DNA of 64,000 nucleotides. Origin: a virus. The stretch covers positions 1 to 64,000 of the IMG/VR virus record IMGVR_UViG_3300043424_000316, one strand, 5' to 3'. Under the pieces are notes generated by a model. It was not told the DNA's origin. It saw only the letters and a program-made list of their open reading frames with translations, and did not search any database. Made by a program: the position numbers and the translations under genes. Positions within the stretch are counted from its first letter, which is position 1. Each line of letters begins with the position of its first letter. Of this stretch, positions 12,905-29,268 are shown piece by piece.

Positions 12905-13588
12905 TTATTTAGTTTTATCGTTTACAAATTCATCCAATGAATTGTACATAGATGATGTATCAAAATTACCTTCAATTATTTGATTACATCTTTTTTCAAA
13001 TAAATCTATGTGATCACCCCATCTGCTCTCAAACAAATGATAAATGTTATCATTATAGAGTGTTCCTATTCCATAATATCCATAATTTGACATTCTCCAA
13101 ACACCATCGTATTTTGGAACACCATCAAATTTTGTTGGGTATAAACATCGATATGTTTTTCCATGATATTCAGCAGTATAACTCAATTCTTCTGCTGTAT
13201 CAGATCTTTCTGATAAGTAAAAAGAAGGCATATCTAGTTCTTCATAACAAGTTTTTGATAAAACTAAAAAACAAGGAGCTGCATATACATGGGTTTTTGG
13301 TGGAATATGATTAGAAACTTGAGCTGCACCTACAAACGATTTATTATCTAATGCATATTTTATAGAATCATCGATTATTTTTCGATTAAGAGGAACACAA
13401 TCGATTTCAAAAAAAACATAAACATCAGATATAGTATTACGGCAAACTCCTGTCATCCATATTCCTTGATTGACATTCATATTTGAATACTGTATATCTA
13501 TTCCGAAGTGTTTCATAACTCGTTTGTGGGATTGTAGTATTCTATCGTCTACATTATCCCAATATAATGTATGGTATGATATTTTCAT
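12905..13588 (-). CDS. Putative glycosyltransferase (GT-A-like)
   Basis: A 227-aa protein that begins MKISYHTLYWDNVDDRIL. The segment ISDVYVFFEIDCVPLNRKIID has the look of a GT-A acidic (DxD-type) motif at the end of a beta strand, followed by a region where acceptor loops would lie (VSNHIPPKTHVYAAPCFLVLSK). It ends RWGDHIDLFEKRC. The family is not clear. Support comes mainly from context: the next genes are a GT-A-like protein, a methyltransferase and a GT-B glycosyltransferase, all adjacent or nearly so on one strand. Confidence 0.5.
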   Translation of the reverse strand: MKISYHTLYWDNVDDRILQSHKRVMKHFGIDIQYSNMNVNQGIWMTGVCRNTISDVYVFFEIDCVPLNRKIIDDSIKYALDNKSFVGAAQVSNHIPPKTHVYAAPCFLVLSKTCYEELDMPSFYLSERSDTAEELSYTAEYHGKTYRCLYPTKFDGVPKYDGVWRMSNYGYYGIGTLYNDNIYHLFESRWGDHIDLFEKRCNQIIEGNFDTSSMYNSLDEFVNDKTK

Positions 13589-13590
13589 CT

Positions 13591-14367
13591 TTAAATCTCT
13601 ATACTATTCCACAAATTTTCCCAATCCAAAAATGGATCCTTTTGTTCATTAAATCCCATATGAAGTGCAAGTGAAGTGATTGGTGTAAATAATTTCGCCT
13701 CCCATCTCCAAATATGATTTATTGTTGTTCCTTCATGTACTAAATTTCGTTCACCCCACTCAGTCATATATTCGGTTGATAACATATAAAATCTACTCCA
13801 ATGTTTTCTAACAAGTTCTGGACTACACATGAAAACGAAAGTAGAATACTTATTTGTTCTCCATCTTCTATTTTTTCCTAAAACTATTCTACATTCATCT
13901 ATGTAATTTGGTTTGTAGTTATCTGGATCATCAAATGGGTGTAATCCCACTTCAATTCCTAAATTTTTCTTGAATGTTTTATATGAATCCACCATTTCTT
14001 CTATTGCAGTTGGAAAATGTAAATAATCATCTTCTACAAAATAAACTAGATCTGCAGTTGAAGCTCTACCCATTTCAAATTGCATATATCCAGAATAGTT
14101 AAATCCTTTTTCTTCTAAAGGAATATATTTGTATTCGTGTTTTGAATTTTTAAATATATCGTGTAAATAATCTACTGTTTTTTGAAATGAATGATCGTCT
14201 AACCATATAAATTTTATCTTACCATCTTTATAGTTTTCTGCAGAATTTACTAACGATTTTACACATTTTCTTATTAAAGTTTGTTTATCAACTCCACAAT
14301 ATCTTGGTTCTCTTGATGGATGAATGTCTATCAAATCATGTGTTCTTAATATAATATCTAAGTTCAT
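13591..14367 (-). CDS. GT-A fold glycosyltransferase, GT2-like
   Basis: The 258-aa product starts LDIILRTHDLID and has an early strand KIKFIWLDDHS, then ADLVYFVEDDYLHFPTAIEEMV, where EDD is the probable metal-binding (DxD-like) motif of a GT-A fold. Later segments (RWRTNKYSTFVFMCSPELVRKHW; TPITSLALHMGF) fit the acceptor side. It would transfer a sugar from a nucleotide-sugar donor. It lies 2 bases from the next gene and just after the methyltransferase gene, in one transcriptional run. Donor and acceptor cannot be told. Confidence 0.65.
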   Translation of the reverse strand: MNLDIILRTHDLIDIHPSREPRYCGVDKQTLIRKCVKSLVNSAENYKDGKIKFIWLDDHSFQKTVDYLHDIFKNSKHEYKYIPLEEKGFNYSGYMQFEMGRASTADLVYFVEDDYLHFPTAIEEMVDSYKTFKKNLGIEVGLHPFDDPDNYKPNYIDECRIVLGKNRRWRTNKYSTFVFMCSPELVRKHWSRFYMLSTEYMTEWGERNLVHEGTTINHIWRWEAKLFTPITSLALHMGFNEQKDPFLDWENLWNSIEI

Positions 14368-27325: not shown

Positions 27326-27330
27326 TTGTA

Positions 27331-29268
27331 TCACCCTTTCTTAGCAAAAATAAAACCACCAACAGAGTTCATATTACGAGTTGATATTGAATACCCATTA
27401 GATTTGAGTGTATCTTCTAATCCTCGAACATCATCGATCGTTTTTGATCCAAGTAAGTGATATTCAACAAGTATATTATCTATCAAATTGAAATCATCGG
27501 AATCAAATGAATTTATCAAATCATATTCAGCAGATTCTATATCTATTTTTAATAAATTTATTCTATCTACACGATTTTTTTCAATAAATGATTTTAATGT
27601 AATTGCATTTACTGAATATGTATCTGAAAAAGAAGAATGATTTTGTATAGCAGAAACGGTAGAGTTGTTATCATGTGTATACAAACTCAATTTGCCGTTT
27701 TCATAATGAAGTGCCGAGTCTATTATTTCTATATTATCAAATGAATCTCTCAATGTTTTTAATGCGTTTATATTAGGTTCTATTGCATATATCCTTTTTA
27801 CACTCGAAACAGTTCTTATGTATTCTATCCACATACCAACATTAGCACCAACATCCACTACTGTATCAAAAGTCTTTCCTTTCAAATATGGATCATAAAT
27901 TCTGTCTATGAAAAATTCATTGTAATTGAAAAACGTTGGTTCTGTTATATTTTTCATATGTATAAATGGTTTTTCAACACTTGGGGTTTTTATTCGTATT
28001 CTTTTACTATCTATAAAATTTCCATTTGAATATATTTCAACATTAAATCCGCCAAAAGTTGGTTCTTTATCGAAATCATAATGATTTTTTGGAACGGGTA
28101 TTATCCAAAATTTTGAATCTCTCACATACTTTGGATGTTTTACAGACCACATGACTGCATTAGAATCCATGTCTTTTACCGAAACAACAACATCATCAAA
28201 ATCTAAATTATGTGAATAATATATTTTATTTTCCGTGTTATCATATTCTACTGTAAATCTACCATTTTCCATTTTAGAATCCATTATTTGTTCATCGACT
28301 GAATTTATTGAAATACCTAATTTATCAACTATCTTTTTTATATTTTTATTCAAATCATCAAAATCCAAATAGGATATAGATTCATATTTATCATACATAC
28401 CCAAATAAACAGGTAAGTTGTATATCAAAGAAGGTAAATTGTAACCTATCGATTCTCTTATTACAAGTGGACTAGTTTCTTTATCATTTTCAGTCCCTCT
28501 TGATGTGAACAAAAACAAATCCATACAAGAATAGAAATTATCAACATCGCCACGTTCACCCCAAATCTTAACATTAGGTGGACAATTCTTAACTAATGGT
28601 TCCCAATACATTTTGAAATTATCTGCTTGATTTCCAACAAAATGAAACTGTATCGGATATTCTTGGAGTTTACGAGCATATTCAAAAATTTCTGATTGAT
28701 TTTTTCTTGGACTGAATAAACCAACGTTAAGTATATGTTTGATATTTGAATTCAATCCTAATTTTTTCAATCCATCTTCTCTACTCTGTCTTTCTTTATA
28801 CTCAATATCGTTTTCAAGAATCGTAATTGGTATATTTAATTTTGAAAATTCTTTTCTTTGGTATTCTGATATAAGTGCAAATTTATCAGGAAAAAATGTC
28901 TTATTTCTAATATCAAAGGAAGAATCGTGTGATGTCTCTATTATTTTATATGGTCTATCAACTGAATATAGTTCAACGGAAACATCTGTTTTCATAAAAA
29001 ATTCTGGTATTTCTTGTAAGTGTACAATATCAGGATTTATTTTTTTAACTATTTCATTCAATTCGTTTTTATCTTCTGATAAAGAGTAGAACTTGTCTCC
29101 AAGTAATTTTACTATCTGTTTTCTTTGAACAACGAAAATATCTGCTATCATAGAATACTCTATACAGTAGACATCAACATCATTTATTATTTTTTTTATT
29201 AGAGATAGTGTATATTGAGGAAGGCCACCCGTTGAAAGATGTGGCACAATAAACAAAACTTTTTTCAC
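27331..29268 (-). CDS. Fusion: GT4 glycosyltransferase + FkbM-family methyltransferase
   Basis: The 645-aa product starts KKVLFIVPHLSTGGLPQYTLSL, the opening of a GT4 GT-B glycosyltransferase, with the later donor-site region SPRKNQSEIFEYARKLQ and the ESIGYNLPSL segment. A beta-rich linker (about 330-460) is followed by a FkbM methyltransferase: VVDVGANVGMWIEY (about 470), YAIEPNINALKTL, and INLLKIDIESAEYDL (D576, E578). FkbM enzymes methylate sugar hydroxyls, so one chain could add a sugar and O-methylate it. The start is GTG at 29268 with AAGG six bases upstream. The stop overlaps the region before the TibC-fusion start, so the two are coupled. Confidence 0.85.
   Translation of the reverse strand: MKKVLFIVPHLSTGGLPQYTLSLIKKIINDVDVYCIEYSMIADIFVVQRKQIVKLLGDKFYSLSEDKNELNEIVKKINPDIVHLQEIPEFFMKTDVSVELYSVDRPYKIIETSHDSSFDIRNKTFFPDKFALISEYQRKEFSKLNIPITILENDIEYKERQSREDGLKKLGLNSNIKHILNVGLFSPRKNQSEIFEYARKLQEYPIQFHFVGNQADNFKMYWEPLVKNCPPNVKIWGERGDVDNFYSCMDLFLFTSRGTENDKETSPLVIRESIGYNLPSLIYNLPVYLGMYDKYESISYLDFDDLNKNIKKIVDKLGISINSVDEQIMDSKMENGRFTVEYDNTENKIYYSHNLDFDDVVVSVKDMDSNAVMWSVKHPKYVRDSKFWIIPVPKNHYDFDKEPTFGGFNVEIYSNGNFIDSKRIRIKTPSVEKPFIHMKNITEPTFFNYNEFFIDRIYDPYLKGKTFDTVVDVGANVGMWIEYIRTVSSVKRIYAIEPNINALKTLRDSFDNIEIIDSALHYENGKLSLYTHDNNSTVSAIQNHSSFSDTYSVNAITLKSFIEKNRVDRINLLKIDIESAEYDLINSFDSDDFNLIDNILVEYHLLGSKTIDDVRGLEDTLKSNGYSISTRNMNSVGGFIFAKKG

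Follow-up and report, generated by a model that had tools for sequence, protein, structure and literature searches.

We analyzed a 64,000-base stretch of viral DNA (here called the window), which comprises bases 1 to 64000 of the 77,220-base record IMGVR_UViG_3300043424_000316 from a freshwater virus of bacteria, and looked into a cassette in which tail fibre genes and glycan-type genes alternate on the minus strand from 36953 down to 12393 (Table 1). The gene order of the window is T4-like and partly syntenic with that of Microcystis phage Mel-JY01. A first-pass annotation had placed six glycan-type genes in two blocks among the fibre genes, and all six were found at the positions it gave, on the minus strand and within a single run of fibre genes. 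Its family assignments held for five of them (GT2, methyltransferase, TPR-GT-B, GT4-TibC, and GT4-FkbM); the GT-A-like label of the sixth, at 12905-13588, was not confirmed. It had also described fibres with G-T-S and G-S-S repeats, and the products of 20395-22308 (34 TSG, 17 SSG, longest run of 37 triplets) and 33306-36953 were indeed collagen-like and rich in TSG and SSG. The run is tightly packed, with intergenic gaps of −25 to +67 bp and a single exception of 212 bp; the GT4-TibC and GT4-FkbM genes overlap by 4 bp, and the TPR-GT and methyltransferase genes by 1 bp. Because the gene order of the cassette was found again in many independent contigs, the arrangement is not due to chance.

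Table 1. Genes of the fibre and glycan-type cassette in the window
Feature	Coordinates	Strand	Evidence and remarks
Tail fibre assembly protein	12393..12857	-	phrog_8716/4912, E 7e-18/3e-17; last gene of the cassette in almost every relative
227-aa protein, possible GT-A enzyme	12905..13588	-	invariant DCxP motif; no family hit; optional
GT2 glycosyltransferase (GT-A)	13591..14367	-	PF00535, 35.5 bits (cutoff 23.3); optional, present or absent among relatives
Methyltransferase (Methyltransf_24/TylF-like)	14373..14969	-	PF13578, 69.8 bits; optional
TPR-GT: short TPR-like helices and GT-B domain	14969..15976	-	model predicted local distance difference test (pLDDT) 86; adjacent to RCC1 48/48
RCC1-repeat fibre protein, 25 repeat signatures	16036..20385	-	PF00415, 621 bits, 21 stretches
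Collagen-like tail fibre with Mtd_N domain, GTSG/GSSG repeats	20395..22308	-	PF01391, 107 bits; PF18454, 40 bits
Fibre protein with glycine-rich C-terminal domain	22578..25190	-	PF21722, 42 bits; 44 bp downstream of GT4-TibC
GT4 (residues ~1-300) fused to TibC-like domain (~330-699)	25235..27334	-	TIGR04414, 287.8 bits; PDB 4rap/4rb4
GT4 fused to FkbM methyltransferase	27331..29268	-	PF00534, 37 bits; TIGR01444, 81.2 bits (cutoff 37.7)
Small fibre-like gene, 292 aa	29283..30161	-	S/T/G-rich; syntenic with fibre genes of relatives
Fibre-like gene, conserved upstream of the GT4/TibC block	30374..31654	-	61-79% identity in relatives
Fibre-like gene	31679..33238	-	88-92% identity in relatives
Large collagen-like fibre	33306..36953	-	45 TSG, 15 SSG, longest run of 26 triplets; conserved in relatives

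The C-terminal half of the GT4-TibC protein aligned with Escherichia coli TibC over 360 residues, beginning at TibC residue 22 (PDB 4rap/4rb4, E = 1e-59). Residues 338 to 695 matched the curated TibC model TIGR04414 above its cutoff of 200 bits, and PF21129, the N-terminal beta-barrel, was not reported in a Pfam scan of the window protein. In the alignment, the iron-finger cysteines C339, C342, C358, and C370 of TibC corresponded to C651, C654, C668, and C680, the catalytic D110 to D424, the thumb tip F265/V266 to Y577/M578, and F368 to F678; K545 and W547 are also listed among the marked residues of the TibC-like domain. The functions of the iron finger, catalytic aspartate, and thumb residues are taken from work on TibC (PMC4358343). 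The four cysteines and D424 were 100% conserved when 47 dereplicated phage domains were compared, and the thumb columns were gapped in 9 to 15 of the 47. Since the cysteines and the aspartate never vary, the enzyme is under selection to function. By its score, iron-finger cysteines, catalytic aspartate, and thumb, the protein is predicted to belong to the TibC/BAHT heptosyltransferase family. TibC-like relatives are encoded on at least 125 stretches of viral contigs, and most of those fetched share the fusion to GT4; a GT4-TibC relative was present in a 735-kb phage, in a row with a collagen-like gene and a GT4 gene. The Mel-JY01 gene at L009:4750-8430, annotated as an FkbM methyltransferase, is a 1,226-aa GT4-TibC fusion, and no FkbM domain was found in it by Pfam scan.

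Next, we examined bacterial TIGR04414 genes, collected by scanning genome contigs and by searching for the family within one bacterial order; loci L284 to L286 came from the family search, made without phage patterns. These genes were of two kinds, the classic ones scoring about 655 bits and the others about 290 to 330 bits. In the lower-scoring kind, 16 of 17 loci had (G[ST][ST])n repeats no more than 1.5 kb away (9/10 of the Methylococcaceae type, 7/7 gammaproteobacterial), and in several the repeat neighbour was a small secreted-looking open reading frame (ORF) 8 to 172 bp away, as in Methylobacter luteus (41 bp), Polaromonas (8 bp), and a number of gammaproteobacteria. Classic TibC loci had collagen-like repeats nearby in 0/5 cases and adjoining strand-loop-strand adhesins in 5/5 (Fisher p for the two contrasts, 2e-4 and 4e-5). 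The Methylobacter genes sit amid housekeeping-type genes and not in a lipopolysaccharide (LPS) locus. A DNA pattern for GTSG repeats, overly strict and in part matching repeats of other kinds, located a second GTSG locus apart from TibC in some Methylobacter genomes. In the tree, phage and collagen-linked bacterial enzymes grouped together on the far side of a 100/100 branch from classic TibC, the collagen-linked bacterial enzymes falling into two groups; the window enzyme thus lies outside the classic clade, among enzymes whose genes adjoin (G[ST][ST])n proteins. Such linkage of enzyme and repeat on chromosomes, with no fibre locus nearby, speaks for the repeat as the acceptor. Two contigs filed in Bacteroidota metagenome-assembled genomes (L246 and L252) also hold GT4-like, TibC-like, and collagen-like genes, L252 with a tail-sheath-like gene besides; both resemble phage contigs that were placed in bacterial bins.

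The serines that TibC modifies lie in the strand-loop-strand repeats of autotransporters (PMC4358343). The analogy to adhesin-glycosylating TibC drawn in the first-pass annotation carries over for the enzyme but not for the acceptor, for which a collagen-like repeat is implied. The window enzyme resembles the TibC/AAH heptosyltransferases (BAHT, TIGR04414; 4rap, 4rb4) in domain, cysteines, aspartate, and thumb tip; it differs from them in its separate clade, its fusion to GT4, its encoding by a phage, and the collagen-like fibres beside it. Unlike in TibA/TibC and AIDA-I/AAH, Pfam and NCBIfam scans found no strand-loop-strand repeat family in the fibres neighbouring GT4-TibC.

For the TPR-GT, family searches returned TPR plus a weak GT9 match; in profile searches, TPR families were matched weakly and in relatives only. 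Its structural model (m86e48498f888) consisted of four N-terminal helices and a GT-B domain, and the best PDB matches were TibC (4rap/4rb4, E ~1e-7) and GT9 heptosyltransferases, with TM scores of ~0.5. An RCC1-repeat ORF lay directly upstream in all 48 loci that had an upstream ORF, down to 50% identity, and in 19/19 after dereplication at 90%, while the genes flanking the TPR-GT on its opposite side vary between loci (GT2, methyltransferase, 227-aa protein, or none). The pair was adjacent as well in the cultured cyanophages BUCT-ZZ01 (40% identity) and S-SRM01 (27%); in a marine single-cell virus, two genes stood between the RCC1 fibre and the TPR-GT. The TPR domain of FlmG of Caulobacter binds flagellin acceptors (PMC7591256). 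By description, TPR-GT is like FlmG in having a TPR-like N terminus followed by GT-B and in being encoded with a filament-type protein, but its TPR part is much shorter (four helices), its nearest fold is TibC/GT9, and its linked gene is an RCC1 fibre rather than flagellin. S-SRM01 (L338:3224-16984) interleaves RCC1 fibres with a 2-oxoglutarate-Fe (2OG-Fe) oxygenase, a sulfotransferase, and a GT2-methyltransferase fusion, and the marine virus AG-345-E08 (L339) interleaves them with 2OG-Fe oxygenases, which hints at a wider modification of fibres.

Taken together, these observations suggest that the phage probably encodes two enzyme-fibre pairs through which its own fibres are O-glycosylated inside the host cell's cytoplasm, ahead of virion assembly. 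The analysis establishes which genes these are, that their active-site and metal-binding residues are conserved, that enzyme and fibre genes stay linked, and that in bacteria the link to the repeats is specific to one clade; enzyme activity, the sugar donated, the residues that accept it, and any influence on binding are inferred from these. Fibre synthesis takes place in the host cytoplasm, which is also where TibC-type enzymes act. In the first pair, serines in the G-[ST]-[ST] repeats of two collagen-like fibres (20395-22308 and 33306-36953) would receive a heptose from the TibC-like domain, putatively out of host-supplied ADP-heptose; GT4, both in that protein and in the adjacent GT4-FkbM enzyme, would extend the sugar, and FkbM would cap it by O-methylation. 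In the second, TPR-GT would dock on the RCC1-repeat fibre and glycosylate it, and the optional GT2, methyltransferase, and 227-aa protein may add to the RCC1 fibre glycan. Priming and choice of acceptor are suggested by family and linkage; elongation and capping are suggested, more weakly, by domain content and fusions. A broader proposal, for and against which we see about equal weight, is that a distinct TibC-like clade from freshwater phages, huge phages, and bacteria including methanotrophs O-heptosylates G-[ST]-[ST] collagen-like repeats, and that T4-like phages carry the clade's enzyme and the TPR-GT/RCC1 pair as exchangeable modules that build diverse methylated fibre glycans.

We then asked how collagen-like genes are placed relative to TibC in related phages, a check that the first-pass annotation had proposed and that came out mixed. 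The slot of fibre 22578-25190 is filled by a collagen-like fibre in several near relatives, with 44 to 47 bp between it and the TibC gene, and a collagen-like ORF lies 44 to 63 bp downstream of the TibC-like gene in seven loci (L013, L016, L017, L018, L073, L091, and L092). Among 46 dereplicated phage loci, the nearest collagen repeat was within 1 kb of TibC in 11 (chance, 7%) and within 3 kb in 22 (chance, 21%). Several results weigh against fibre glycosylation as we propose it. The enrichment appeared only by this nearest-edge measure, and collagen density within 4 kb of TibC was not raised (88.7 bases per kb, versus 102 farther off). Collagen is common in the lineage (12/18 records), and the close kin G014, G017, and G018 have collagen fibres without the TibC block, so co-occurrence within phages alone proves little. 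In one phage clade TibC adjoins a tail sheath gene and the fetched flanks contained no collagen, although most records of that clade do hold collagen elsewhere. For the second pair, RCC1 fibres of distant phages gave no TPR-GT match and distant TPR-GT homologues occurred without RCC1; the pairing therefore belongs to aquatic T4-like phages. We regard adjacency to collagen in phages, taken alone, as modest evidence. Whole-record co-occurrence of TibC and collagen in terminase relatives was set aside as uninformative, since collagen is common and several contigs end inside repeats. In one viral contig (L022:1-7512), a GT4 gene and a GT4-TibC gene are preceded by an open frame of 2,503 aa in which 622 Gly-x-y triplets, G-T-S for the most part, follow one another without a break.

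The main alternative is that the enzymes modify host LPS or capsule and so block superinfection, the fibre region being a place where host-interaction genes gather. This reading has been published for the glycosyltransferases of the pelagimyophage host-recognition cluster (PMC7029224) and for cyanophage clusters (PMC7824862), which likewise interleave glycosyltransferases with fibre genes in T4-like phages, and the GT2, GT4, GT9, and FkbM families also serve polysaccharide synthesis. The TibC-like enzyme and the enzyme-fibre pairing are not described in the available portions of those papers. We nevertheless consider modification of the host surface unlikely: the TibC family with an intact iron finger targets proteins (PMC4358343), bacterial enzymes of the same clade adjoin collagen-like protein genes, in Methylobacter amid housekeeping-type genes and not at an LPS locus, and TPR-GT stays with its RCC1 fibre gene while its neighbours turn over. 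An enzyme family that targets proteins, the link to repeats in bacteria, and an RCC1 pairing that does not change thus make fibre modification more likely than a change of the host surface. Self-glycosylation of fibres, put forward in the first-pass annotation beside the host-surface alternative, stands as the best-supported reading of the genes, through the enzyme-fibre pairs, the link to the bacterial TibC-like clade, and the invariant RCC1/TPR-GT pair.

The targets could also be mixed, with the TibC-like enzyme and TPR-GT acting on fibres and the stand-alone GT2, methyltransferase, and 227-aa protein acting on host glycans or small molecules. Specific fibre links were indeed seen only for the first two, the other three being interchangeable or absent, but the Methyltransf_24 domain forms one protein with GT4-FkbM in L017 and with GT2 in S-SRM01, suggesting that these domains share pathways, and we find this division quite improbable. 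A further reading, in which cassettes recombining at the fibre locus brought enzymes and fibres together incidentally and the enzymes are passengers or DNA modifiers, seems very hard to sustain: the GT4/TibC block is gained or missing as one unit among relatives, behaving as an optional insert, and phage glycosyltransferases are often assigned to DNA protection (PMC10202952), but catalytic and metal-binding residues are invariant in 47 divergent domains, and no base-hypermodification gene was noticed beside the cassette, where no systematic search was made.

Fibre glycosylation as proposed here has partial parallels among known systems. Mycobacteriophage virions are glycosylated, and phage-encoded glycosyltransferases have been proposed for virion proteins (Freeman 2023, as cited in PMC12619734); as far as that citation goes, the targets there are capsid and tail-tube subunits, whereas here they would be fibres with paired enzymes of another family. 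BclA collagen-like proteins carry glycans (PMC8968730) and share the Gly-x-y repeats, but BclA lies on the spore surface and not on a phage fibre, and the comparison drawn here is between the repeat proteins.

The 227-aa protein had no Pfam, PHROG, NCBIfam, or PDB match, and its AlphaFold model was poor (pLDDT of 40). It has an invariant D-C-x-P (DxD-like) motif, and 3 of 13 relatives gave marginal GT2 matches; the label GT-A-like is possible, if unproven. Its gene is near TPR-GT in S-SRM01 too, and a second paralogue lies outside the window (L012:12244-12927, genome 75244-75927), beside a UvdE-like endonuclease gene. A cytidylyltransferase-like protein (11660-12403) adjoins the fibre assembly gene, some homologues in relatives being longer (590 to 760 aa), and could be a nicotinamide mononucleotide (NMN) or sugar-phosphate nucleotidyltransferase. 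A role in making heptose precursors was considered and rejected, as the matches were weak, generic cytidylyltransferase ones and the protein was closer to NMN adenylyltransferase. The homologous gene of viral contig L019:2542-6237 holds an intein (TIGR01445, TIGR01443).

Environmental T4-like phages commonly carry glycosyltransferases at their fibre loci, and the usual interpretation is that these modify host LPS. The new element proposed here is that phages use protein glycosylation of the TibC type, with a linked acceptor of another kind; our literature search turned up no paper that connects TibC-type enzymes with phages or with collagen-like proteins, which is not proof of novelty. Isolated candidate systems exist in Synechococcus phages S-SRM01 and BUCT-ZZ01, Microcystis phage Mel-JY01, and Methylobacter luteus. 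If the proposal is true, an O-glycosylation family known from E. coli adhesins would gain a second role on collagen-like proteins of phages and free-living bacteria, and the host range and evasion of phages would depend on a glycan layer that receptor prediction from sequence ignores.

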